From the NCBI RefSeq assembly GCF_021155765.1, contig NC_060115.1, forward strand, positions 6,614,493 through 6,678,492: a DNA stretch of 64,000 nt, read 5' to 3'. Positions 1,900-55,961 of this stretch are shown one piece after another; position 1 is the first letter of the stretch, and the number at the start of each line of letters is the position of its first letter. The translations under genes were made by a program, and so were the position numbers. The DNA is from Diprion similis (Eukaryota > Arthropoda > Insecta > Hymenoptera > Diprionidae). The notes under the pieces are model-generated. The model ran no database searches. It saw only the letters and a list, made by a program, of their open reading frames with translations, and was not told where the DNA came from.

Positions 1900-4800
1900 A
1901 TGCGGTGTCTTACAGCAACCTGTATTTTACTCCTGACGGTAATGGAATTGAAAGGTAATTATGGTGAAGCGTGTGTTTCGTGCTATTTCTCTTTTATACA
2001 ATGGCTGTGTTGCCGTGAGTTCATTAGCTGCCGATTTCACGGCCCATTCTCGTTTTCAAGGCCTATGTCAAAGTTTCGAGACGCATTTCTATGGTGATTC
2101 TAGCGATCAGCTTTTTGGTTATTCTTTTAGAGTTTCGGATACTACGTATGGGGTTATCGAACGTGAAATATGATTTCATCCATACGATAGTTTAGACCGA
2201 AAGGTAAAGAGAGCGAGAGAAAAAAAATCATTTAACCTATCCAATCGCTTTTTAATCCAACCGAAATACTAAAGCTTAGCTCTAATCTATTCTGAGACTA
2301 GACAATTCAGATATTTTCACATTTTTCAGCCCACACGTAAGCACGAATGAAGGTATCGTATATATAATAAATACTAGCTATTATCATACACGTACCGCCA
2401 ATCGTCAAAGTTTTAGTATTCGGTTGGCATTCGATCGTGTTCACAAGAGAATTCCTTGTATTTTCCAATCTTGCTTTCAATTCTGCACCAAAATACAGAC
2501 GGGTATTTATAGTCAATTTACAGTTTGATGTATAGAGCCTTCAGGCCACGTTAAACGAAACAGCTGGCGCGGCGGTCAGTTCCGGCTTTACGGGAGTTTC
2601 TAGTCCACGGCGATAGAACTTTATTTTGGTCAATCACACTAGTCGATAAGAGAATATTTTTTATCAGGCAATATTTCATTCAATAAAGCTTATCACCGCA
2701 GACGAACTTGGGATTGTTTAATTTTCTCCTTTTTATTTTCTCAGGTTGGCACAGCACGTTAAAAATTCTTCATTATTTCCTCGTACTTGACTATATTTAA
2801 TCACGACATTATTTCTCATCCGTTTAGAGACTGGAGCACGGAAGCCAACGATGATTCCTGACAAAGAGCAGCTTGTTATCCAGGAAGGAGCGGAGTTGAG
2901 AATATCCTGTCAGGGCGATAGTCCTATTCAGTTTTCTACCATGGACCTGTCAGGATATGCATACGTACGATCCATCATTTGATCTGTACCGAAACTCATT
3001 TGCGCTCTCCGTTCGTCGGTATCTCGGCAAGATTGTAACTTAATTTTTATTCATTAATAATGGTAAACTTGCAGTCTCAGCAATCGAATCATACTATCGT
3101 TGTCGATAACAATACTCACGAGTATACCTTCATTGTACCTCGTGCCACGGCAGTGGATACCGGTTGGTACGCTTGTTCCGAGGAAGGGATGACGATTATC
3201 AATGACGAGCAAACCATCAATCGTTCGAGCGAAAATGTTAATTGGATTTATGTCTACGTCAATTGTAAGCATGAACACACCGACGTCCACCATTGAATAT
3301 AAATGAACAGATTGTATTACCTAATTTACATACGATCATATGAAACAAGGATGTCTGCTTGTTGGCTAATTATATTTATTTATACTATCATGCAGCACAA
3401 CATCAGAGGTCCTCTAGGCGTTAGGAATCTCAGATGTGATTTACGTAAATCTGTTCAGCATTCATTAAGATTCGTTCGCTCGATTCTCGAATCTATAACA
3501 CTCAATTAACAGTAGTCATATGGATATATATATATGTACTCTTTTCAGCCGCGAACCGATCATTTGCTACTGATTTGGGCTATACGATAATCAGATTGCC
3601 TGGAAGTTCCTTCGTCGTACCATGTCGGCCAACAGCGGAAGATCTGAAGCCAAAACTTCTGTTCAATTATCAGGTAATTGTAGGTCTTACGCGTACATGA
3701 ATCTTACTTATTCTTTCATTATCACAGAAGGAAATATTATTTAATTCAATATCAAAGTGACCGTAATATTCAACAATTATTTAAATTTTTTTTAGTTAAA
3801 TTTTTATTATTTCATTCAAAATAATAATAATTCCTGGAACACAAGTGCCGATAGAATTATCATGCTGATGTAAATCCCAACTCACAATTTTCTCTGTAGA
3901 TATTAGACGAATATTTAATATTCACAGGAAGACGATTCGGAACTAGACAATTTCAAATTCGATTCGAAAATAGGATTCATCAAAGATGACGTCAACGTTA
4001 ATGACGCTGGCGTTTACAATTGTATACTTCCGTTTTCCAATAATCCCGAAAAAGTCGAAGAACTGGATTACGAATTGGATCTAGGTAATAACTTTCGTTA
4101 ACTCTAGCAGCTGAGCGAAAGTACAACAACGTGTGCATAGATTTCAACTTGTTTCGTTTATCTTCGTACTTACGGATCTTTATAATATTCATAAGAAAAT
4201 TATACCTCCGTTTGATGACGACAATAGTCACTTGTATTCTACTTTTGCTGAATTTTTCTTCACTCTCCAAATATTCGGATGATTTAACAAATATCTTTTC
4301 CAACAACAGATTTAGACGATTTACAGCCTCCGTTCTTCGATGATAACGAACTTCGTCACTTGGTCTGGGGAAGAAACCAGACTATCACCTGCCACATCAG
4401 TTTTGAAACTCCCGACTCGTATCGGGAACCCTATAGCGTGGAGTGGACAGTTCCGAGTTCAGTACCAGTAGGATTCACTGATAACTGATATTTTCAATGT
4501 TAAAAATTATTTTAAAAAATTATTTCAGGTGATGGTATGTCTGTAATAACAATTGCGCGTCCAATGTGTGGGATTGTGTATTGAGCAGTTAGTTTTGTCA
4601 CGTGATTGATTGTAGTGACCCTGCAATGGACATCTCGCACTTAAAAATGATGAAATTTCAGGAAACAAGATTGGTTCGCACGCATCCTACTCGTGACAGT
4701 AGTCAATTGACAATAATAGATGTTCAAGAAAGTGATAGCGGGGTATATAATTGCACCGTGAGGAAAATGGGAAAGCAAGAAAGCGTAGGGAGAAACGTTC

Positions 4801-7437
4801 AATTTCATGGTAAATATAAAAATCGCTAATAATTTAAACCCAAACTCTGAAAATTCATTTTTTACTTCGAATTTACTTTGCACTTATTTTTTATGAAATA
4901 TACAATATTTCCAAAGATAATGCATCATCGGTCTTATTAGACTTTCGCAATTCGTTATCGATGTAAATTCTCTTATGAATTTTCCCAGATCCTAATCGTC
5001 CGCATCTCAAGGTAATCGAATCTAGTGAGAATGCGTCATTTATACATGTTACCGAAAAATCAACGGCAATTTGGGCGATAGATATTGACACGTATCCCAA
5101 AGCAACAGTGACATGGTGAGCCTTCCACAGGATATTTATCTTTTTTTTTATTTTCACAAAATTGTTTCCTTTTCGAGCATTCCGTTTTACTAGAGTTTTC
5201 CTCGTGTCGGATGTCCGTGAATTAAATTGGTTTTGATAAACTTTTTCTTGGATATCAACAGCTAATGCAGATTCAAACGCTCGTTTTTGATTTCATGTAT
5301 GATTCTGAAATGCATAGGTTCTCTAAGGATAAAACGGAAATCACCAATACCAGCAAGTACTCGCATGCTGTACATGGATTACGTCACGTGTTCCAAATAT
5401 CCGATGTAAGAATTGCTGACGCTGGCGTATACACCATCCACATTGACACTTCGAACCAAACTAGAGACCATGAACTTCTATTAGTGGTTCAAGGTGGTAA
5501 ACCATTTAAATCTCCGATTACTCTTGATTAACCTGACGAGAATTTTTTAAACTTTCTTTGATACACTTTTCAGCCGCACCGGTGGCTCGCATCGTCGAAG
5601 CTTCGTCATATTATGCAGTGGGAGAATCCGCAAGATTTTCTTGTCACATATCAGGTTCACCGTTACCGAATGTAACGTGGAGTTATTTGGAATACCCTGA
5701 TTTTCCATCGAAGAGTATCTCCAATCGTCCAAATTTTTTGGCAAGTATCAGTTGGTCCAACTGACCAGTTTTGTGATATTTCACTGCTGCACTTTCAGTA
5801 ATTACAATTTGTACACTGATATTATATGCCTTTTCATTTATACGATTTTGCTGCAGTAACAATAACCCAATTATCTTTTCCCGTCTAGGAACTCGTAATG
5901 AAATCTTCCGAATTTTCCACCGCTGGATTCATTTCACAGGTCAACATAACGATCAAAATGGAGGGAGATCTGATATGTAAAAGCTGCAATAACATTGGCT
6001 GTGTCGAAGATAGAAAATCAATATTTGTTTCCGGTAAGCTGATGTCGAAAATATTTTTACTTATGCTATAGAGAATGAAAATCGATTCTCTGCTATTGAA
6101 AGCATCATTTAATGGAAATCGTTGATTTAAATTACTTGTTTATCACAGACGCAAATGGATCTTTCGGCATAATTGATCCAGGCTTCGTTGTGGAAGGCGA
6201 TAACATCGATCTTACGTGCGGTGCTTCTGTTCACAATTATACCGATGACATTACATGGGACGTGAAGAACGCTTCTAGAAACGGTATCGCTACTAAGTTC
6301 ATTGCAATTCTGTTACAAAGCCGAGATTTCCAGTAAAGACCGCGGTATTTCTGTTCTGACTACACAAGTGCAACAGCCAAAAGTCATCTTCGATCTTGAA
6401 ATGTATGTGTAAAATTTATTTCAGAAAGCATGATAATCAATAAACGGAAGACGAACTTTACGTTTCAGTCAATTCTTAAAATAGAAAATGTGCTGAAATC
6501 GGATTCAGGAGATTATTTCTGCAAAGCCGTAAATAAGAATAATCAGGAAGAAACGATTGCATATCGTTTGTCGGTACTGGGTATGTAAATATATTTGCGA
6601 AAATGGCTGAAGGCAAGTTAAAATTTTCATTCATGTGAATACTCGTTTTACAATTACATATTCCTTGGCTCTTTCAGACGCGCAAGTGCCGTCAATCATT
6701 GAATCGAATATGAATAATTCTCAAATTATAATCGATCTGGGAAAGGATGAGAAGGCTACTCGTAGACTAACTTGTTCTGTCGAAGGAATGCCGTTTCCAG
6801 AAATAACGTGGCTCAAGGTAATAGAGTCACGGTATGCTCGGCTGAATTATAAAAAAACACCAACCATCGTCATTTCATTATCGTCAACTTTTTGAAATTA
6901 CACAGAACGGTGAAAGGCTTGAAAATAACGAACAGTACGCCATTTCGTTCAACAAGTCTGAGCTGCACATAAAATACTTCTTTAGTACTGACGGTGGAAA
7001 TTACTCCTGCCGAGCGAAGAGTCGTCTTGGTGTTAGTGAGAAATCTTTGAGCATTTTGATCGAAGGTAAAGTTGCAAAAAATTCCTTTTTCAAAAATATC
7101 ATTTACGTATACGTGGCGAAAGTATAAATGATCATCGTATTTCTAGAAGCACCTCGTAACAATGGAATATGGATCGCTTTGATCTGTGTTCTCATCGTCG
7201 TCATTGTCGGAGTGGTAATTTACATGAGATTCAAAGTAAAGCGAGAAGAGGTAAGTTAAATCGTCAGGCTGCAGTGCAACAAGGATATTCATTACATCTG
7301 AACTGTTGCAGCGTTTGAAGAAAGAATATCGCAACATCGCACTTTCGCAAATTCAACAAAGGTCCCCCGAGTTCAATCTCAATGACGAAGATGAGCTGAT
7401 ACCAGTTTATCAGGGAATAGTGCGGCAACAACTCTAA
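1900..7437 (+). CDS. PVR-A: PDGF/VEGF receptor-like membrane protein without a kinase
   Basis: Seventeen exons join in frame: 1900-1954, 2828-2964, 3075-3264, 3549-3673, 3928-4084, 4310-4467, 4662-4809, 4989-5115, 5318-5496, 5574-5740, 5889-6033, 6149-6283, 6425-6580, 6678-6817, 6906-7065, 7147-7250, 7312-7437. They give 802 residues. Residues 1-19 are a signal peptide. Seven Ig domains follow, ending near residues 128, 222, 324, 426, 530, 627 and 727. Domain 4 has no cysteine, as in class III/V receptor kinases. One transmembrane helix lies near 733-755. The cytoplasmic tail is about 47 residues and ends at TAA; no kinase exon follows before PVR-B. The last exon aligns weakly with the juxtamembrane exon of PVR-B (DELIP against AELLP). 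The donor of exon 10 is GC, not GT. I infer a ligand-binding decoy or co-receptor. Transcript evidence could change the ends of exon 9, which has two possible donors. Confidence 0.85.
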
Positions 7438-8041
7438 CCCACAGAGTTACACTCAAGGTCATTAGAATCTTTCAATTTATTACTAACAAACTAATAAGTC
7501 TTATATAAATAATGCATAATACACGTATATGTATATGTATTTCTTATATGAGACGCAAGTATGGTTTACACGTTTTTTCCCCTGCGGCTGTACTTAAAGT
7601 AATTTCTTCTACGATAAGTAGAAGGAAAAACTTGTAAGCCATACTTTTGTTGTGTAAAGTATCATTTGCATCATGGCGGCCGAGTCTTTTTCACTTAACG
7701 TAAAATAGTGCAAACTTACGCTCCTCCTAAAAAGATTTATTTAGCCTCCATGGTGTGCAATCTACTTCATAACTGTACAACTAATTGAAATAATTTGTAT
7801 AATTTTTATCTCGAGGATGTTGGCATTAAAAATACAAAACAACCATTACAATTGAATTCAATTTGAGGACTCCAAAGTGAATAGGCTCACACAGTTCGAA
7901 GCGGCAGGATGAAATTTTATTACAACCGTCTCGCGGTGTATGAAAAAGGTTCGTGAAAATATTTGGGTCTTTAATTGAGAAAGTCACGAATGAAATGGGC
8001 CACTTCAATTCGGTCAGAAGGAATACTTCTAAGTACGTATA
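7438..8041. other. 3' flank of PVR-A
   Basis: AT-rich sequence between the PVR-A stop and the end of the next gene on the minus strand. I looked for kinase remnants (glycine loop, [11 protein letters not shown]) on the + strand and saw none. It probably contains the PVR-A 3' UTR. Confidence 0.5.
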
Positions 8042-9631
8042 TCACACATGATCAGAATCCCCCGTGTATTTCATGCCGTAATGGGTATCCGGTAGCATGT
8101 TGTTCGTAATCGAGGATAAAACAGACGTATCTGCAGGATGTGGAATCTGAGGGTTTTCACAGAAATATCGTATCATTTCTTGTGCGGTCGGTTCCGTAAC
8201 ACTAAGTGGCTACGATACTTCTCGATGCAGAGTATTCAATAATTATAACTTTACGAAAATGCGATGGACCAACAAAGTCGGCGAGACGTAATCCCTAACA
8301 TAAATACGAAAAATTGTCTTGTCAAAGAATAATAATTAAGAACGCAAAAATGTATACTTAAATTCGTACTGAAAATTTTTCCTGTGAATGAAAAAGATTC
8401 CGTAAAGCAAAGCTCCAAAACTGCAGAGCATTTCAATGGTCAACTGTTTGAACATCCTGCTGGGATTTCGACCTTTGAACGAAGTTGGAATTCGCGTGAC
8501 ACTGATTTTAGCTGCTACGACAATGATCGCCTTTCCGATTATTCATATGCCCGACATATGCACTCGCATGTATGGTATTAAAAAAGGCAAATACCAAGAA
8601 TTTCGATGACTGCAGATTGCTTGGAGTAATGTAAACTAAATGAATGAAGTGACGAAACTCATGTGGTAAGAATCAGCTTCCTAAGATATTCATTCTTTTT
8701 CTGCGACAGAGTTAGCTGCCTTATAATCCTAATATTCAACTAATGATTTCCTTCTATGGTGTTTAAAATCCGGTGCATGTCTTTATTGTTATAATTTTGA
8801 TCGGACATTTGGACGTCAAATATTTCAATGGATTTCTTTGCACAATTTTTAAATATTAGAAAGTGCAGACTGGCAGAATTGGTTTTGGCAAAAAGCCAAT
8901 TTCTACCATTTTCAGTCGACCTTCATGGAATTGGATGCGTGACCTTGTGCTATCTATTTTTGTACTGTCAAAGTTTTTCAGAATTCGAAACGGTACGTAC
9001 CGAAGTTGTCAAATGAAGATAAATCTCGGATTGATCTTTTGCTCACGTACTTCGATAGCAATACTGAGAATGCACGGATACCGACTGAAAATATTATACA
9101 GACACAGGAGGACCACTTTTTCGATTAAAACACTCTTCAGCCTCTCGATGTCGACTGATTAACTTCAATAACGCTCTTCCCCAATATCACGACACGTCAC
9201 GACACAAGACGTTTTAAAACATGGAATTACACTAAATAAGATTAACGCGTCTAGAGGTAAAGCTACCATCTCCTTGCTACACTATCTATTCCGCAGTTCA
9301 TGGAGACTGTAGATTTCTTTCACTGTCCCGTTCCGTCTTCCCCGCAACTCGGTGACGGCGATAATGCTCACGTCGAGTGTGCAGTATTCGATTGATCAGC
9401 ACTTGCTGCCAAATCATACCGGTTTTTCCAAATTCCCGGACGGGCCTTCGTTTGTATCATTCCGAAAACCGGTCCACCACTGTTGCATTCCTGCGACGAT
9501 TGGATTGGCGAAGGTGTAAATCTGATGCCCCAAAGCCATGCGCGAAGCCCAAAATGTGACAACTATGTAACTTATTAGGATTGGATTAACAATGTCGACG
9601 GTGACTATCGACGATCGCAAAACACACTCGA
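8042..9631 (-). CDS. Probable membrane protein of unknown family, partial model
   Basis: I do not recognise this gene. Two exons join cleanly on the minus strand: 8530-8370 (AG before, GT after, phase 2) and 8201-8042, which ends at a TGA. Together they encode 106 residues with two hydrophobic stretches (AIIVVAA and a helix around MLCSFGALLYGIFFI) and a polar C-terminus ending in SDHV. A third open segment at 9631-9437 ends in phase 0 at a GTATGA donor and fits the phase of the 8530 exon. It holds another hydrophobic helix (ILISYIVVTFWA) and a Trp-rich loop. An exon at 9084-9001 may also belong. No start codon was identified. The C-terminal exon has a decayed copy at 13303-13359, which argues that it is or was a real gene. 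It could still be a pseudogene. Confidence 0.4.
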
Positions 9632-10976
9632 TCTACTATAGAAAATAGTCAACTTTACTGTGCAGGATGGAGAAAATCGACTGTTAGAAAAGCTAAATGA
9701 AGTATTAACATAGTTGAAGCTTGTGCTACATTCAAACAGTTGGACTTTCGATATCACTTCTCTTATTGGTACTGTAGAAATCAGCTGTATCACTTTTCCA
9801 ATTAAAACGGTAATTAGTAGCCCATTGTCGAACGGTATCTAAATTGAACAGCGTTCAACGTTTAGATGAGATTATTGCACGCATTTCCTTGAGTTTCTTC
9901 ACCATAATTACTTATACATTATTAGTTTAACATACATATTTTCATCGGCGCATGTTGATTATTATGATTTTTTTCTCTTTGTTCTGCACTTTATCAACGC
10001 TATCAACTGGAACTTCCTGTTTTTTTAGTAGAGCACACGTGCATCGGACGCCGGAAAACAAGCAACCAACTTTACACAACGGTAAGGTGTATCGCCGTGA
10101 TGTAAGGAGAAGTAGAGATGGTGAAAATTTTGCACACCTCATTTTTGCAGTCTTTATTGATAGTTCAGTTCATATACAGTCATAATATACATAATTATTA
10201 GTGCATAAATCAGAGTTCTGATTTGGTACATTTAACCAGGATTCAATGAACCTACGTTTTCATCATATATGTTCGGTGTGATAATAATTCTAATTAAAAA
10301 CTGACGATGAGTCTCACGATGTTTACTCATGTATTTCTCCGTGTACATTTTATCTGGTGTTACATATTGACGTTGACAGAATCAGGAGTGGTTCTGTTTG
10401 TGCAAGATTTTTACTTCAACTGCCGTACAAACCTGATGGCAGCAATGAATTTTATAGAATACATGTATGTATACATTTTTGTAAGAATTTGAATCACGCA
10501 TAATTGAACAAGGTTTGAATAGTTTTACTGCAATGCGCCAAAATCATGTCCTCTGGAAGATACCGTTGTCTACCAAATGCCGATCCGATTATGCATCAGG
10601 AAAAATCGGTCACCTGAAGTCCCGCGAATCAAAATTCATCCAGTAAAAGTTACTCGCGGATCAGCTAGTTATTTAATATTCATTGTTGGATTGTTACACG
10701 TAAGCGTGTTCTTCGGAAGTGTCTGGTGACGTCAAAAGTTGATTGTTGACGAACAGAAGTGGGAGATCGAAGGCGGTGTAACGTTGTGCTGTCTGCCTCG
10801 CGGAGTTAGTGAACAGTTGTCGCTAGGATGAGAAAGTGATCGCGGTGTTCGTTTGGTTAACGATAAGTCTTCGGGAAACGCACCGGGTAGTCGGTGAATT
10901 TCGGCTGGCGGGTTCCAAGTCAAGTTTTTTCTCGATGTCGAGATCTGACTGAATGCTCCACCGCCAAAAAAACAAT
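9632..10976. other. Intergenic region upstream of PVR-B
   Basis: No gene was found. Short open frames here have no recognisable domain. The last 250 bases before the PVR-B start hold candidate regulatory sites, listed separately. Confidence 0.5.
10713..10734. promoter_or_regulatory. ETS-like and CRE-like sites upstream of PVR-B
   Basis: TTCGGAAGT at 10712-10720 resembles an ETS-factor site. The palindrome TGACGTCA at 10727-10734 is a full cAMP-response/ATF element. Both lie about 250 bp before the PVR-B start codon. Matches this short can arise by chance; their closeness to each other and to the first exon is the only support. Confidence 0.3.
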
Positions 10977-14700: not shown

Positions 14701-17700
14701 GTGTTTGAAATTGAGACATTCGTTTTAGCTACAAATCCTTTCGCCGTCGCGCATAGTCTTCACTCGTTATGGTTACAAGTGGGGACAACAGGAGTCATTC
14801 CGTGTCGGCCGACGTTACCCACGATTCAAGTGAAACTTTACAAGAAGTTCGGTGTAAGTGACTGTATATAAAAAGTGAATAATTAATGAGATTGTTTTGC
14901 ACGAGAGAAAAAGGAAATCGATAAAATTAGTACCGTAGAACGCAGATTGATAATTATCCGTGAAATTTATGATTAGCATAATCCTCCTCCCTACCCATAC
15001 TTATGTTGAAGATACTAAATACTTGACCGCGATTTGCAGGATCCAGAGATACCAGAAGAAGCCGAATTTGACCCAAAAATTGGATTCATCTTGAAAAATT
15101 TGTCACTTGCACTGTTAGACGAAATGTTAGAGTGTAAAATAGTTGGCATCGAAAACTCGGACAGTGAGGCGTCGTATATTTTAACCGTGACAGGTGAGTT
15201 TGTGCTTATGCATTTTCGAGCTTATAATCCACTCGATTGTGTATTCTTAATGAATTTCCCAAGTGACTTTCATTCTTTGAGTCCATTCCCTCTACAAGTG
15301 TGCGTCACGCTATTTCTTCGGTCAAGTTCGGTTCGAAATCATTGATGATTTGTTTTTTCTCCTTTCCACACGAAGTGCCGAAAATTCTGCCAAAGCCGAT
15401 AATCGACGGAGCTGCGTTGCGTCACGTTGTCTGGGGTAAAAATCAGACTTTGACGTGCTCGATAGTTATGAGAAAATCTGATTTATTTACTCTGAAATGG
15501 AAAGCTCCATCTTCCGTTTCGGTGAGTTTTAGCAACAATGTTACTCAAGTCATAAACAATTATTGGCGGTTCAGATTTTCATGACGAATCGTTCAAATTA
15601 TACGAATATTATGCTTCTTTCTCGAACTCATGATATGCTGCGTCTGATAATATCAAATTATCACGTGAGTAAAGAGCTGCAATTCATATCTATTTTTCTC
15701 AACTCTCGCGGCATTTGATTGCCCATTTCATGTTTTTGATTAACGCGATGGCGTGAATACGGTGGAAAAAATATTTCAGGAAGACAGACTTATTCCGGAC
15801 GAAAAATCGGTAACCGGGTTAAACAACGTGACTCACAGAGCCTTCCTCACAATAGTCAATGTTCAGAAAAGTGACGAAGGTGAATATATTTGTACCTTGA
15901 AGGATAATGCTAACAACGTAACGACCAAAACACACCTTAAAATTTGGGGTAAGCATAAATACCGTCGCGTTCTATTTTTATCCAGCCCGTTCTATTTGGT
16001 CCTTCCAGATGCGAGAATTTTTATAATAATTTGATCAATCGATCCATTCAAAATTTTCCAAGATCCAAATTATGTGTACCTCAACGTGAGCCTGGATGAT
16101 GGTAGCAGTGCTTCGTTGCAAGGCCGCGAAGGAGGCACTGCTCGATGGAAGATGACTGTCGACAGTTACCCCGAGAACGTTACTTGGACGTGGTGAGTCT
16201 CAGTACGAGGTTGACAGAATCTTTTTTTATTTCGAGACTGAATCAGTTTGGTCATGTAGGCAATTACGTCTGCGGTCTTCCGTGCAGAATTTTCTCACCT
16301 CCGATTTGCTCGGAAAAGAATGGCACCCATGCACCGTAACCGACTAAATGGGAAACAACGCACTCGCGCTTTCCTTCGATGCAAAATAAGCCGCCATTGC
16401 ATCGCATTTCAGTAAACCCACCGATCCTGTTATACGAGATTGATAAATACATGTTTACTGTCGATACAGGTTCAAAGGTAATTCTGACGATCCAATTAAA
16501 GATGTCACATCGCTTTTGCAAAGCAAATACTCGCACATCCAAGATGAACGCGGAAGAACGCACGTCTTCAGAATAGCTCGCCTGAGCGTTCGCGACACGG
16601 CCAATTACACAATTCGTGCATCCACTCGAAGTAACATGACCGACACCATCCTTCATTTGAATGTCGAGGGTAAGATCTTTGCCGAGTAATACTTCGTATT
16701 CATCAAATTCCACAGTCATCGTTAATGATTCGTGACAATTTCCAGGACAGCCAATTGCTCACATGACAAATACCTTGTCGTACTTCATGCCAGGCCAGTC
16801 TGTCGATTTCATATGCAAAATTCTAAGCAATCCACAGGCTAATGTGACATGGATTTATCGAGAATACCCGAAGTTTCCCAGCAGAACCGAGTCAAAATCT
16901 ATCACTTTATCGGCAAGTACCAATTAATTTTACTCGATCAATTCCGCGTGTCTAGGTTAAATAAACGTTAGACGGTAACATTTGTAATACGAGTGTCCTG
17001 ATTTTAAGATTGATTGTAATTCCGTATTTATTTTACCCAGAACACGACGTCTATAGAAGCGAAACGCGAGCCGTTTACTATTTTTTCTCGTGTGACCGTA
17101 AAGATCAACGAAACCGGTGATCTGGTGTGTAAGAGCTGTAACAGGATTAATTGTACGGAAGTTACAGATCTAATTTATGTTTCCGGTATGTTCATTCCCT
17201 TGTTTTTCATCTCTCGCATTATTTCTAGCACCGTTGAAATAGATTTTTCACTAACCTAATCTCTAATGGAACGCATTTTCGGTTCTGCGATTGTTGTAGA
17301 CGTGGCTTCACCTTTTGAGATATTGGAACCAAAATCGGTCACGGAGGGTGATACGATCAGTGTATTATGCGGAGCTTCGGTGTATAACTACAGCGATAAA
17401 ATTGAATGGGACGATGTCACCAATTCCGAGGACGGTATGTTTTTCGAAATTTGTTCGAAGTGTTTTCTAAATCTTCACATGCAAGTACTCATAATTTACA
17501 CGTAAAAATATCAATGAATCGGAACTATTGAAATATATTTATAAAACTTTTCCCAGGAAGAATATCGGTTGAGTATAAAACTACGAAGTTCACCCATCAA
17601 GCGATACTTATAATACGTGACGTACAGATGTCCGATTCAGGAAATTATACTTGCCATGCGTTTGATCCGGAGAATAACAACAAGGAACCGCAAACCTACA

Positions 17701-21551: not shown

Positions 21552-24500
21552 CATTTTATAGACGAATTTTCCAATACGTCCAGTGCCATGATGATTTTTT
21601 TATTTTTTTTATCGACAGCGTAACGTTTGAACTGAATTTACCGAATCTATAATAATAATGTTCAGTCATTCTGTTTCCACTTATCAGCTCCTTATTATAT
21701 TATTCATACACCGTAATTGTAAATAATAGCATCTAATTTAAGCAAATTCTGGTCATATATCTTTCTTCGAACTTCATATCCGTTGTACACTATCCATTAA
21801 TGTGAAAAAATTGAAATTTACATTGCATTCTTATTTTCGTTTCACTCATTATTACGACATCGCGAAGCATACTTTTATAGACACCTTTCTATCTGCTCGG
21901 AACATTTATACTCGTCTTCCGGATAGCAGATTACTTTTCTGATCAAAATTAATTACAAATACTTATATCCACGTAGAATGTAGATTCTAGATTCTATGAG
22001 TGGAAAATTCTTAAGCCAGTGCGTTGGACTAGTTTCAATATCAAATTAGAGTAAGTTCTCTTAAGTACGATGTGACTCAAATGCTTCCTTAATTACTTAC
22101 AGTAATCTTAACATTACTGAACAAACAGAGGCGCTGGATTTCATAATTTTTTTCTACCCAATACGATACTCGATAACGCGGTTTGTTTTAAAGCCGAGTA
22201 AATTCATTATCTCAATTCATTTATACATACCGCGTGCCATACCGATGACTCAATGTTACCCATCGATATTTTGTACCCTACTGGTAATTTGTCCATTAAG
22301 TAGCATATCAAACACTTGCAATATCTGTTAAGGTACAAAAAGTTTTCATTTTCTTTTAGGCTATATTGACTAACAAGGGGAATACACGCATTCGGGGTGA
22401 CCGATTTTTATACAATTTGAACTGGTGAAACTAGAACTAGATTTCATTAGACCCATTTTTTTCCATCCCATGGGCAGCGATTCCTGAGAAATTACATATG
22501 GTTTGTTTTTTTTATAAAAAAATCATTCCTCCCTATTTTTATTACTTTCAGGTATACTTTAATGATACTATTTTCTTTCAACGGAATGTATCGTACGAAT
22601 TTATCGTACGCATATACTATTGAGAAAAACTTCGTTTACATTCGTGAAAACATTTCTTCGGATTCGGTTAATTTTTCTGCGAATCAAGCGTTTTTTGCAG
22701 CATATATCGGAAAACCGAAGCAGACCATTGACTATGGATCAATGAAAAACTCTACATAAAAAAAAAAAAAATGTAATTCAATTTCTCCGGAGACGGAAAA
22801 AAATATGGGTGAAATGAAATTCAATCTAGTTTTACCGGTTCAAATTTGATAAAAATCGGTCACTCTAATGAGTGTACCGGTGTACCCCCATTGCAAGTGT
22901 GAATCACAGCGTTATTTCAATGTATAGAAATGTATGCATGGTATTCACGTTGACAAGTACTTTGAATAATTTGTATCTGAATAATTTTAAGTAAAACCTC
23001 GATGATTATTTCTAATGAATTCATGATGAATATATTAATTATTTTTTATAGGGAATAGAGTTACGTTTCGATAAAGAAGGAGAGCGTAAATGATTGTTCA
23101 CTCAATATACATTACCTTTAGGTTAAATTTTTTTATAGACTTAGGCCAGTGGTTTTCCAAAAATTCCAAATAAAGATTTCACGCTAACTTTACGAACGAC
23201 AACTTGAACACACTTGTAATTTACCCAATTAAGTGTTTCATGAGAGAGGACAGAGTAGGAATCGGAGGTGGAGGAAAATTCGACGCGGAAATAATGACAT
23301 GTCATCTTGAGAGTGAAAAAGATTTTACAACTTATAATTTCTCGTTATTTACAATATTTAGTTCGTCACGTATTTAAGATAAAAATTCTTATTGCACGCT
23401 CTTCTGTCCGAGTAACGTTAGTCATGACCGGAACTCGATTCACCACATGGTAAGAGAGCACGAGCTTCTACTTGCCACAGTGTAAACGAATACTCATTAC
23501 GCCATCGTCTGGAATATCACTTTTGTTCTTGATATTTTACCACGTAGCATCTGAAGACAGGCAATCCTGTGGGGGAAAAAAAATTTACTTTGCAGTTATC
23601 ATTTCATCGAATATCTGCCACGGTAGGAGGAAATGACGAAGAGCTTGTTAATCGTAAGACTAATATGAGGGCAGGGATTCGAATGATTTATTTTACCAGC
23701 AATCACGAATGAAAGGTGAACATTTCGTCGAACGAAATGAAGTGCATAACGTCTACCTGCATCGCCATTTTCGTCATATCTGGACTGCATGAAGGTAACT
23801 TCGAAAATTGCAATCCAATATAGCGATATACAAATTTTATTTTTTCTCAACAATTCACCATGATTTATGGATATATTTGAAAAACAGTGCAGTTTATCAC
23901 TAAGCTGAAAATTTTGCATGGATAGATAAGAAATGTGCGAGGTTCATGTGAACTCCTTCCGGAATAAGTTACAGTTATAAGCCACAAGCGATAAGTGCTG
24001 ACCCTAGAATGCGTTGTATGCATTGTCAAGTACATTCTCAGTGCAAAAAGCGCTCCAAAGCTTTGTACGATATTTTGAAAATAAACATTTTTTATTATTA
24101 TTAAACAATCGTTTTTTCACTTCAAACATGTATTCGGTATTGCAAAAGTAATTGTTATTACGGACAAAAGACGTACGTGACATATACGACATGCGTTATT
24201 GTATTCTTAATAATCCCTTGCAACATAATTTTCCTCTTTAAATACTGAAAAAGCCGTCTTCTACGAGTGAAAATTTTGCTATATATAAACATACACACAC
24301 ACATACATACACATATACATAATTCTCAACTTCTGAGATGATTGTGGCAAAGAAAAGATGCGGTGATTGATATGGGAAGTGGCGGGGAAATGGATAATTT
24401 GTTAACACCGAGTATCACTGCAGTAAAAACAGTGGCGGATGGCATAAGGATGTCGTCGCTCCTGACCCGAGAGTTTAGCTTGAGTTGAAAAAAGTCTTAC

Positions 24501-27500: not shown

Positions 27501-30500
27501 GGCACCTCCAATCATCGACGAGGACAAACTCCGACACTTAGTATGGGGGCAGAACCACACTTTCAGCTGTCACATCACCAATACAACTCATAAGCCGGGT
27601 ATTGATATATATCAACTGACGTGGGAAGCCCCGGATTCGATACCAGTAAGTTTCATTGTCAACGGCACCGAAGAATAAGCAACTCATTGCATCTAATCAA
27701 GCTACATGCAGCTACGAGTGTTTGATTAGGCGAGAAATAACAAGTAATTGAACGGAAATACATGCTACGCTTGTATGTGTGTATCGGAAACTTATGCTTT
27801 GCTAACTGTACAACATCCATGTCAATCGTCTAACGTCAAATCTTACGATTAAATTCCGAGGTCGATTAGAATGTATAATTTCAGGAGGAGAGACTGCGGC
27901 GCAAGAATCTTACTGGAACAGAAGTCGTGTTGACTATACTAGATGTGCAGAAAAGTGATAGCGGGAAATATACTTGTATTCTGGAGGGAAGATCCCACAT
28001 AAATCCCACTTCCAAATCAGTAGACATTAAATTTTATGGTAAGATATTTAATCATCACTGAACCTTTTCCACTTGGACTGGTAATTATTCATCTAAAAGT
28101 TTCGTGTTTTTTTCTTTACGAATTATTTCCAAGCTACAGTTTTTTACTTCTTCGATACACTAATTTATAATCACATGGCATACAATGTATACCTAATACT
28201 ATGTTCATTAGTTATTTACGCATACCATGGTGTGATTTATTCCAGACCCCCATGCTGCGTACATTAATGTGACTGCAATTTCGCCCTCGACTCAAACCGT
28301 AAATGCAACACAAACAGCAGTTTGGGAAGTTGATATCGACACGTATCCTGAAGCCAACATCACATGGTACGCTTTGTTTGTAACTATTGATTTTCGATAA
28401 TCGGAGAAAAGTGGAAAAAATGGGTTTGGCCGTCGCGGGACGCCCGGCAGAAAGGATTTCCTAAGCGGTTTTATGTTTTTATATTAAATTCATATCAAGT
28501 TATACACATTTATGGATGCTCGTGGTTGAATGAAGTCATAAAGGCCTGGGGGGGAGGGTTACGATTTTGCGTCGCAGTTTTGTGTGACGGCTCATTGATT
28601 AGCTCTCCATTTAAAAAGTCTAGTTTTAGAAAAATTTCTGTGTCTGACAGGTATGCACAAAAGTACGAGACTTGCTCAGCAAATCAGTTCGATACGTAAC
28701 ACGGCAGTTGAATTCCATACTGAAACTGAAATTCGTTTCCCCATGAACCAATTCGTACATGTTTTTAGAAATCGGAGTCTAAATTCTTTCCAAGTCTGAG
28801 CAGTGTTACAGAATCTGAGAATCAATTTTTCAATTTCACTTGTTTCCGATTTCACATATGTTTTGGAACACAGGCTCGATACGGAAGGAACAAGAATTTC
28901 CAATTCAACCGAGTACTCGCATCATGTATCAGGGACAAATCACAAGTTCCAAATACACAATGTGAAAATTGCTGATTTTGGTAACTACACAATTCGTATC
29001 GACTATGGGAACGAAACTAAAGACCATCTACTTGAATTGAAGGTTCGAGGTGAGTGGAGTGAACCCATAATTATCTTTGATTTTCCTGATCCAATGGCGT
29101 TGACGTGAACGGACTCATTTCGCAGCGCCACCAACTGCTGAGATCGAGGCTCTATATCTTTCGCACAAACGAAACAAAGTTCGCGAATTCCTTTGCCGGA
29201 TATCCGGGTATCCGTTACCAAACGTAACATGGCGTTACTCGGAATTCGCCGATCTTGAATCAGACAATAAATCTGTCTACACAGTACTTCCGGTAAGTAT
29301 CGATTGATAGGACCGTTTGATTCCAGTACTCGATCAATGATCCTCTCGCTCTAGCAGCGATGTAAATAAAAATTCACCAAAGCCGCTGTCGATAATAACA
29401 CGAAACTTTCTCTATCTAGCCAACAAGAAACGAGTCGTTAGATAATCCCTTAGCCGGCTTTCGCTCGTTTTTAAAAATATCGATCAACGCAACAGGTAAT
29501 CTGACATGCAGAAGTTGCAACGAAATCCATTGTGCCGAATCCATCAAGAAAATCCACGTTGATGGTAAGTCGATTTCGCTGAGTGTTCTCTACTTCTGTT
29601 ACTTGCGGACTTGAAGTACTTTCGCAGCAGAGACGGTCGAAAATATTCTCACTAAGTGGAAAATCGTCTTGAAATCGCGGAAGCATGGAGTATGATTAAA
29701 ATCTGAGGTGGGATCATCCCAAGTCACAGAAAATGCGCATTGCTTTGGCTACGTTCTTTGTTGGCGTAAAACTAACGATCGTTTAATTTTCAGACAGTTA
29801 CCCAACGGCAGAAGCATCTTCCCATAAAGATATCATCTGGATCAGCTCGATCTGTATCCTCATCACAATCATCATCGTAGTTATTATTTGTATGGGAGTC
29901 AGAATGAACCGTGAAAAAGTAAGTAGGATTCGAGATCGCCGTGTATGAACGTGTGACGTAAATTGCGAACGTATTTCAGCGCCGGATAATGGAATTGCTC
30001 GACGCAGGATTGACGCATTTCGAAGATGGAGCACTGGAGTGTTTAAATCCCGACTTGACCGTAGGTGAACAAGCGGAGTTGTTACCCTACGACAAGAAAT
30101 GGGAATTTCCGCGAGAGGATCTGAAACTTGGTATTTAAAGTTATTCAATCGAATGAGAAAGTTGCAGAAACATGCAGGGAATTACGTACTTTGGTTAATG
30201 GACTTGTAGCAGCACATGGTGAAGATAAGAATTTATTGTCCGACAGGTAAACAACTGGGAAGTGGTGCCTTCGGCGTTGTGATGAAAGCTGAGGCGCGAG
30301 GGATTTGTGTCGCAGGTGAAATCACCACCGTGGCTGTAAAAATGGTTCGACGATCGGTGGATCCGAGTTACATGAAAGCTCTATCCGGTGAACTCAAGAT
30401 CTTGATTCACCTCGGCCGACATTTGAATGTCGTCAATCTTCTCGGTGCTTGCACCAAAACCATCCTCACTAAGCGTAAGTTTTACCATTATTGCCATTAT

Positions 30501-53670: not shown

Positions 53671-55961
53671 TCACAAACCCAACACCGTGTGGGGATGCGG
53701 ATGCCCGTGGGGGTGGGGGTGGGGATGGGGGTGAAGCGGCGGCGGGGGCGCCAGAGACAAGGACGTCAGGCCCCCGAGCATCCCCCCCATTCCCCCCAGG
53801 GCTGCCAACCCCGTCATTCCACCGTTCGCCAGACCCCCCTCACTTTTCGGCTCCTTTTGGTCCAGCTCTTCCCTCTTTTTAGTTTGCTTTCGCTCCTTCG
53901 CCCGCCGGTTTTGAAACCAGATTTTTACCTGTCGAGACGAGATGGAACAAGAGTTACAACATATGATCATCGATGTGTAATCCGGGTCTTGAGATTTGGA
54001 CTTTTTCAGGACTGAAGCTAATGTCACGTGTAGAAATAACCCGTAAATTATAACCTGTCATAAATAACGCGTGACCAATAATAATCTGTGAAAACAGTAA
54101 CTTGTAGGAAAAATAAACCATGGCAAAAAAAAAAAAAAAAAAAAAAAGTTATAGACCATCAAGTTATAGTAAATTAAGTTTCAAACGTGATATTAAACAT
54201 TGATGAAAATCATAATTATCGTTAATATTTGGTGTTCATGATTCTTTTTTATTTATGATTGGGGAATGGGTTATTTTTTATTTTTTTTTTTGCTAGGTCT
54301 TGTATATATTTTAAATTATACAAGCGCGTATCAGTAGTCTAAAGTCGGTGGATTAATTAAAGTTTAAATTGGAGTATCTTTTTTAATTTATAAATATCGA
54401 GGCAGGGATTTGACTTTGGAAAAAGAAAACGTGAATATTGATTTTGAAGGAGGTTCCTGCATCGTAGCTTAATCATTGATTGATGAGGATCTTTAGTTTT
54501 TCAAGATTCTACGGACTCGTTGGTTTTGATTGGATAACAGCAATATCGGATTTACTATAGATAAAAAGGCAAATAACAAAAAACAATTATTTCAATAAAT
54601 TTATGAAAATAAGATGTTCTTATAACTAACGATTACATGAATTTTGATTAAAGTTTCAACGTTCGATTATCTCGACGAAAAGGTAACGAATTTCGACTCA
54701 CGAAAAAACTCGCGGCGGCGAAAATCATAGAACAAAATTTTTAATCGATCGTAACGAAGTGTTCATACCTGTCGTTCGGATAGTGCGAGATTCGCGGCAA
54801 GTTCCGCCTTGCGTCTAATCGTGATGTAGCGACTGTAGTGGAACTCCTTCTCGAGTTCCAGCCTCTGGTGATCCGTGTAGACTACTCTGTACTTGTCCTT
54901 GGTTCTTGTCTTTCCTGGAACATCATTCATTACGAATATGTATTGACGTTAAGCTCAACAATCTGCAACCGTCGATCAAATCACAGAGGCGACATCGTTA
55001 CGTCTGTCTAATGACATAATGTGACATAACTTATTGTGCAACGTCATAACGAATTCGTGGAGAAATTTAATTACACGCTAAACGAAATTTTAGTGCTTAG
55101 TTTTTTTGAAGTAACGACGTACACATTAAATTGCAGCATTTTGTATCTATTGTCGTTCCGACGGAATGGTAGAAGCTTGATTTTTTTAACACGCGATAAT
55201 TCAGTCATCGACTCTTTGATCTCAGGATTACAAAAAATTCACATCAGACGTGCAGCGTAATGCGAAACAACAATCAATTTTGAAACCGTGCTAATTTGTT
55301 GAAAAAAAAAGAATACAAAATATATAATTCCACTACACAGAAAAAAGGTAAATCAGGTACTGTTTGGTAAAATCATTTGCTAAAATTTTAGATATCAAAA
55401 CTTATAACGTAACCGACTCTACCATTATTAGCACACCACTTTGCAAATCTTTTATAACGACGGAAGAAAAAAGTCGAGTGATTCATCCGATGATGAGAGA
55501 CAAGACAAACGTTTCAATGCACAAGTAAATACACGATTGTATAATAATATATATATATATATAATCCTTAGTATCTTATACATTATACGTATCATATGTA
55601 TATATATATATGTATGTACTCGCACCTAGGTATATATAAAAGTATGAGAATTTGGGAGAGGGATGAAAAAGAGGCTCGTGCGATGTCACGTGACAATTAG
55701 ATAGATTCGGAGGTATATAACATACCGATCAATTAAATCGATCGTCGATGTAACGCAGACACAAAGCGAGAGCCATGCAGACTACGAACCCGAACGATCG
55801 CCGGGAATATCTACCTGCCTATCATAATAATCGCCGCTGAATATATCCGTTATCGCGGGTTAGCCGGCCAAATGATCATGCATCACCGTCACACGTCGAG
55901 CCGATCATGCCAGGAGGCATGCATGTAACGTCAACGTCACTCGCTCGTTGTTGCGCCTTCC

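Follow-up and report, generated by a model that had tools for sequence, protein, structure and literature searches.

Kinase-less receptors are already known. A truncated Pvr without its kinase serves as a dominant negative in Drosophila, and paralogues of the insect insulin receptor were reportedly described as decoys by Smykal in 2020. According to passages of two papers, FGFRL1 is a separate gene that combines a receptor ectodomain with a cytoplasmic part lacking a kinase (PMC12026108; PMC3820611). Soluble VEGFR1 (sFlt1) acts as a decoy, and mouse development is normal when VEGFR1 has no working kinase, as stated in a section of another (PMC7765180). A separate kinase-less gene of the PVR/VEGFR class was not found among the open-licence papers of PubMed Central that our literature searches listed.

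The gene described here, PVR-A, lies in a window (the whole stretch of 64,000 nucleotides analysed) that is part of contig C11 in an assembly of 269 Mb. Its splice signals and phases were read by hand and checked with a script, giving a model of 17 exons and 801 aa with the sole stop at the end (Table 1). All 16 introns had AG acceptors and 15 of them had GT donors, the remaining one being the GC donor of intron 10. The original prediction of an intact seven-Ig ectodomain was upheld by the spliced model, since exons 1-15 (1900-7065) encoded a signal peptide and seven Ig domains in the VEGFR order without any stop. The predicted membrane anchoring also held: exon 16 encoded a single membrane segment, as in PVR/VEGFR receptors, with GIWIALICVLIVVIVGVVIYM as its hydrophobic run (recognised by eye), and was homologous to the corresponding exon of PVR-B, C, D, E and F. 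Borders and phases of exons 16 and 17 were consistent. The frame did stop in the cytoplasm, after 49 residues and not the predicted 47 or so.

Table 1. Positions of PVR-A, its tandem neighbours and the intervening stretch within the window.
Feature	Positions	Strand	Remarks
PVR-A coding exons 1-17	1900..7437	+	spliced model; above the Pfam cut-off only Ig-type families, no kinase
PVR-A exon 1, ATG and signal peptide	1900..1954	+	phase 1 junction common to PVR-B and PVR-C
PVR-A exons 2-15, Ig domains 1-7, two exons per domain	2828..7065	+	
PVR-A exons 4-7, Ig2-Ig3	3549..4809	+	ligand-recognising domains in VEGFR1/2
PVR-A exon 16, membrane segment	7147..7250	+	homologous in PVR-A to PVR-F
PVR-A exon 17, kinase-less cytoplasmic tail, TAA end	7312..7437	+	homologous to the PVR-D tail
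Stretch between PVR-A and PVR-B	7438..10976	.	kinase relic not found by HMM scan
PVR-B, 23 exons, 1406 aa	10977..21551	+	seven Ig domains, membrane segment, kinase with HGDLAARN; PF07714 E=1.5e-88
PVR-C, 19 exons, 1185 aa	24593..32770	+	Ig1-5, then membrane segment and kinase; PF07714 E=1.9e-86

PVR-A shared with the insect and crustacean PVRs the seven Ig domains in the VEGFR order, the exon layout of PVR-B and an exon 17 that goes back to the PVR juxtamembrane exon. In contrast to them, PVR-A and its relative PVR-D (see below) were kinase-less and had a short tail end of their own. The HGDLAARN motif of the kinase-bearing neighbours PVR-B and PVR-C also occurs in the decapod PVR consensus given in a passage of PMC11024359. 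Similar to FGFRL1, PVR-A was a separate gene with a receptor ectodomain and a kinase-less cytoplasmic part; however, FGFRL1 has an FGFR-type ectodomain of three Ig domains, whereas that of PVR-A had seven, and the growth-factor receptor matched across most of it was VEGFR1. PVR-A also resembled sFlt1 and the kinase-deleted VEGFR1 in having an Ig ectodomain without a kinase. As far as the section on sFlt1 goes, this form binds ligand as a decoy, while ligand binding by PVR-A is putative; moreover, sFlt1 is a soluble splice form and PVR-A is a membrane-anchored product of its own gene. The insect insulin decoy receptors were likewise insect receptor paralogues but belonged to a different receptor class.

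To look for a kinase downstream of PVR-A, we scanned both strands of the stretch between PVR-A and PVR-B, which like the rest of the window contained no N, with HMMs built from these PVR genes, one for each of exons 1-23 plus the A/D tail. PVR exons 17-23 were absent among the six best matches in this stretch (E 0.51-2.2), and the PVR-B exons were recovered in the same scan as a positive control, with E down to 2.5e-117. The earlier statement that no kinase exon was visible before the next gene was thus confirmed, and hidden kinase exons between the two genes were rejected because none were found in the scan. A Pfam kinase was not found in the PVR-A or PVR-D protein. Since PVR-A lacked the split tyrosine kinase domain of the PVR/VEGFR receptors, we did not file it as a receptor tyrosine kinase but as a variant among kinase-less receptor paralogues; the absence of a signalling kinase is what a decoy receptor should have.

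The assembly was searched with PVR-A and with the PVR-B kinase, only the best candidates of each search being scored. A second gene of the same type, PVR-D, was located on another contig (C10:6038928-6047191); its 17 exons encoded 821 aa without any internal stop. It was 47.6% identical to PVR-A over 792 aligned positions, compared with 40.0% over 773 for PVR-A and PVR-B. The PVR-D tail NLKREVRRMALSELDQQPYDDSVNDEDEVISNNQESSRDRLIRL and the PVR-A tail RLKKEYRNIALSQIQQRSPEFNLNDEDELIPVYQGIVRQQL both ended in a stop and were homologous, their match covering 40 aa at 42.5% (E=3e-5). Within 8.8 kb downstream of PVR-D, exons 18-23 were not among the six best HMM matches (E 0.1-1.0), and one exon 17 match lay on the opposite strand at chance level (E=0.34). 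No kinase match was found near PVR-D in two genome searches that scored the best 124 of 423 and the best 99 of 260 candidates, and the closest PVR-type kinase exons on C10 among the matches listed were at 3.46M and 10.44M. Upstream of PVR-D, a decayed fragment with exons 11 and 13 and an in-frame stop (read by eye) was seen at positions 1878-2284 of locus L017.

The two kinase-less genes were also compared at the nucleotide level by global alignment against 300 shuffles. The tail exon (z=9.0, 60% identity) and the membrane exon (z=18.5) were clearly similar, whereas introns 16, 15 and 11 (z=-0.5, 0.1 and -1.2, respectively) and the 3' flank (z=0.9 for 130 nt, z=-0.2 for 400 nt) were at chance. 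Thus, among the parts tested only the coding ones were still similar, and the kinase was probably lost before PVR-A and PVR-D separated. Compared with PVR-B exon 17, the tail exon of PVR-A had z=-0.3 and that of PVR-D z=3.2 (PVR-A against PVR-F, z=0.4); because these values were low, the homology of the tails to the juxtamembrane exon was recognised mainly by position, phase and protein alignment. Both tails had a common five-codon deletion, PVR-E having its own four-codon gap nearby. They followed the pattern LK[KR]E.R..ALS...NDEDE[LV]I, in which NDEDE was identical in PVR-A and PVR-D and replaced by other residues in PVR-B, C and F.

By the common definitions of dileucine and YxxPhi motifs, the PVR-A tail contained a dileucine-like DEDELI and two YxxPhi motifs. 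None of these was retained in PVR-D, and we therefore rejected endocytosis motifs as the role of the tail. Similarly, the tail motifs of FGFRL1 (dileucine, a tandem tyrosine-based motif and a histidine-rich sequence) were not common to both genes; instead of conserved trafficking motifs, PVR-A and PVR-D retained a different, acidic block. A genome search with the membrane segment and tail of PVR-D returned eight matches at E<=10, namely the two PVR-D exons, the membrane exons of PVR-A, F and C, the PVR-A tail (E=0.30) and two matches at chance level. Tails of this type were found by this search at PVR-D and PVR-A only, and other diverged tails could be missed since the PVR-A tail itself reached only E=0.30.

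In the best ectodomain tree (FLU+R2), the branch between A+D and the other genes, grouped as (C,(B,(E,F))), had a support of 93.7/91. Nine topologies were compared under LG+G4: one was best, seven had AU p<0.001 (two of these also paired A with D but had the remaining genes in another arrangement) and the one pairing A with C had AU p=0.043 and SH p=0.41. Unusually high nucleotide identity was observed between PVR-A and PVR-B in exon 2 (2828-2964, 0.73) and between PVR-A and PVR-C in exon 9 (5318-5493, 0.66; third positions 0.74), which suggests gene conversion in the PVR cluster. Such conversion can distort trees and rates; in addition, dS was high (1.33 for A-D).

The ectodomains of the kinase-less genes were under purifying selection similar to that on their kinase-bearing paralogues. 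In the codon tree with four taxa and 700 codons, dN/dS was 0.35 for PVR-A (p=2.6e-4 against 1) and 0.35 for PVR-D (p=3.5e-5 against 1), and the kinase-bearing background had 0.34 (p=0.81 for A/D against background). With five taxa, the values for PVR-A and PVR-D were 0.40 (p=3.8e-4) and 0.46 (p=9.8e-4) over Ig1-5, and 0.50 (p=0.021) and 0.46 (p=0.0018) over Ig2-5. Three-taxon fits gave the PVR-A branch 0.33 with PVR-B as the third taxon (p=0.002), 0.46 with PVR-F (p=0.09) and 0.44 with PVR-C over Ig1-5 (p=0.003); without Ig1 these were 0.35 with PVR-B (p=0.015) and 0.55 with PVR-F (p=0.31). The original prediction had proposed that the ectodomain was selectively kept and had named a ratio near 1 as evidence to the contrary. 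The fullest fit agreed with selection, as expected for a decoy receptor (0.35, p=2.6e-4), and was far from such a ratio, although two smaller fits were not significantly below 1.

Pairwise comparison of PVR-A and PVR-D over 721 codons gave a dN/dS of 0.355 (dN 0.47, dS 1.33, p=7e-21). Domain by domain, Ig6 (0.215) and Ig7 (0.18) were the most constrained, followed by Ig1 (0.25), Ig3 (0.26), Ig2 (0.30) and Ig4 (0.47), and Ig5 (0.71, p=0.22) was the least constrained. The membrane exon had 0.56 (p=0.28) and the tail 0.40 (41 codons, p=0.085). For the kinase-bearing pair B-F, Ig7 was at 0.58 (p=0.09) and Ig5 at 0.17. The comparison set consisted of PVR-E, F and G, recent copies whose ectodomains were at dN/dS of about 1, including the kinase-bearing PVR-F. 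Namely, E-F had 1.07 over 737 codons, and in the exons common to PVR-G the ratios were 0.99 (E-F), 1.00 (E-G) and 0.97 (F-G). This set shows that the method gives 1 for unconstrained divergence; since it includes PVR-F with its intact kinase, a ratio near 1 alone was no proof of decay. Neutral drift of the PVR-A coding sequence was simulated as well (300 simulations per rate). At 0.05 substitutions per site 3% of the runs were stop-free, the mean over all runs being 4.4 stops, and at 0.1, 0.3 and 0.5 none were. Thus, the stop-free frame of PVR-A was not due to chance, because a neutral sequence gains stops at a drift far below the A-D dS.

With respect to ligand binding, residues 32-620 of PVR-A matched the VEGFR1 chain 5t89_X in the PDB in one stretch (E=6.1e-24). 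The first match by E-value was a two-domain match to titin (residues 589-728, 3.4e-26), and a shorter titin match ranking first is expected for Ig domains. When Ig2-Ig3 were taken alone, the best PDB match was VEGFR1 D2-D3 (E=3.6e-8). Ig2 of PVR-D was above the cut-off of the Pfam VEGFR-1-like Ig model (32.5 vs 27 bits), and Ig2 of PVR-A did not match this model at E<=0.01, so its ligand binding could have changed. According to a section of PMC7765180, VEGF-A is recognised by domains 2 and 3 of VEGFR1 and VEGFR2, and homotypic contacts in VEGFR1 involve domains 4, 5 and 7. The weak constraint on Ig5, a homotypic contact domain in VEGFR1, argued against a fully kept dimer interface; since Ig6-7 were the most constrained, the dimer part of the model below was half supported.

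On balance, we favored the view that PVR-A was a dedicated membrane-anchored kinase-less PVR, which would bind PVF and/or pair with PVR-B and PVR-C and so damp signalling. In the evolutionary scenario that we propose, the loss of the kinase exons by a duplicated full-length PVR would most likely have been a single event, after which the ectodomain, the membrane segment and, made from the former juxtamembrane exon, a short tail were retained. This kinase-less gene would then have been duplicated again, giving PVR-A in the window and PVR-D on contig C10. The PVR-A ectodomain might bind PVF dimers via Ig2-Ig3, and/or pair with kinase-bearing PVRs via the membrane-proximal Ig domains. Being unable to phosphorylate, PVR-A would take ligand away and enter inactive heterodimers, and PVR signalling would be damped or spatially restricted. 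Seven PDGF-domain matches were present in the genome, all of them above the Pfam cut-off; with these, a receptor that binds and pairs without phosphorylation would most simply be a sink or a dominant-negative partner. PVR-A probably acts as an intrinsic brake on growth-factor signalling, although the conserved tail fitted a job beyond that of a passive decoy. Of the original prediction, the anchoring, the missing kinase and the selectively kept ectodomain were thus supported, and the decoy or dominant-negative role is putative.

Tentatively, PVR-A and PVR-D may be considered as a class of their own among the PDGF/VEGF-type receptors, kinase-less and kept for a long time, as the counterpart of FGFRL1 in the PVR family, with an ectodomain constrained like that of the signalling PVRs and a tail with its own conserved function, in a genome with multiplied receptors and PVF ligands. 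It was possible, but rather unlikely, that both were active kinase-less receptors whose tail binds cytoplasmic partners or sorting adaptors, with a co-receptor, trafficking or adhesion role and not that of a passive decoy. Such a role would agree with the similarity of the tail exons next to introns and a 3' flank at chance, with the NDEDE block and with FGFRL1, which, according to a passage of PMC12026108, was once seen as a decoy, gained further roles and retains trafficking motifs in its tail. However, the dN/dS of the tail was not significantly below 1, and the DEDELI and YxxPhi motifs were not retained in PVR-D. We considered it unlikely that PVR-A and PVR-D lost the kinase independently and recently, so that the measured selection was mostly older than the loss. 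Their stop positions differed, that of PVR-D being about three codons further, the A-C topology was not rejected by the SH test (it was at AU p=0.043), and PVR-E illustrated a separate stop-caused loss with its own gap near the A/D deletion. On the other hand, the five-codon deletion and the tail residues common to A and D were absent from PVR-B, C and F, the A+D split was supported, and no kinase relic was found near either gene.

The original prediction had itself named splicing from exon 16 into kinase exons as a counter-case. A kinase-bearing product by read-through from exon 16 (7250) to PVR-B exon 17 (18543) was conceivable, as the donor and the acceptor were both phase 0 and the two genes lay in tandem on the same strand. 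It was nevertheless improbable, because PVR-D had the same type of terminal tail exon ending in a stop, and the scan of the 8.8 kb behind it revealed no kinase exon; moreover, PVR-A exon 17 was conserved with PVR-D, and PVR-B had its own signal-peptide exon. A PVR-A/PVR-B kinase fusion as the main product was thus disfavored by PVR-D. Least probable of all was a decaying functionless duplicate, in spite of the missing kinase and the decayed appearance of PVR-E (juxtamembrane stop) and PVR-G (two stops, truncated) on C7. The dN/dS on both the A and D branches, the 801 stop-free codons against the stops expected under even slight neutral drift, and splice sites that were all intact spoke against it, and PVR-A as a pseudogene was rejected by the selection results together with the intact frames.

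If the preferred reading of PVR-A as a kinase-less brake is true, the Pvr pathway would carry a heritable, gene-encoded brake; according to published abstracts, Drosophila Pvr has roles in the number and survival of blood cells, in the response of larvae to wounds and in cell size. With two gene copies and a conserved tail, the question of a sink only versus a task of its own becomes directly testable. Moreover, one genome held the possible steps together: full receptors (PVR-B, PVR-F), one without Ig6-7 (PVR-C), a freshly truncated one (PVR-E), a pseudogene (PVR-G) and long-kept kinase-less ones (PVR-A, PVR-D).

Three relatives were located on contig C7. PVR-F (8.13M) had an intact kinase. 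PVR-E (6.737M) was its recent relative, with 76-89% identity in Ig1-6 and 54% in Ig7, and a stop replaced W in the KWEFPR of its juxtamembrane exon. Beyond this stop, a short piece resembling the start of the next exon and interrupted by an inverted-repeat insertion was seen by eye; it was not among the HMM scan matches listed. In PVR-G (9.30M), a stop lay in exon 5 and another in exon 10, and no exon was found past 11. PVR-D, E, F and G had a common GC donor in intron 2, and GC-AG introns occurred at equivalent sites of PVR-A (intron 10, 5741-5742) and PVR-B (16913-16914).

PVR-type kinase exon 21, with 50-65% identity, was present at at least 17 loci on C1, C5, C9 and C10 among the best 99 of 260 candidates, and at an additional partial locus on C1. 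Upstream Ig-like ORFs were seen at three of the four loci examined, and both of those given to Pfam matched Ig families. These loci represented a second, large group of receptors whose ectodomain was different and shorter. Of the seven PDGF-domain matches, four were within 11.40-11.60M of C8, and the PVF ligand genes may likewise have multiplied in tandem. In viral contigs, five stretches fitted a pattern for PVR relatives and none was confirmed.

Within the window, PVR-C lacked exons 12-15 (Ig6-7) and kept its kinase; its Ig5 ran straight into the membrane exon (PVR-C intron at 29565-29793). PVR-C may thus be without the usual membrane-proximal control. Between PVR-B and PVR-C, an orphan signal-peptide exon MKCITSTCIAIFVISGLHEG followed by GT was detected at 23737-23793 (HMM E=1.6e-4), which could be what is left of a further copy or could serve PVR-C as an alternative first exon. 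Finally, an ORF at 53671-54057 on the minus strand was presumably a caudal-type homeobox.
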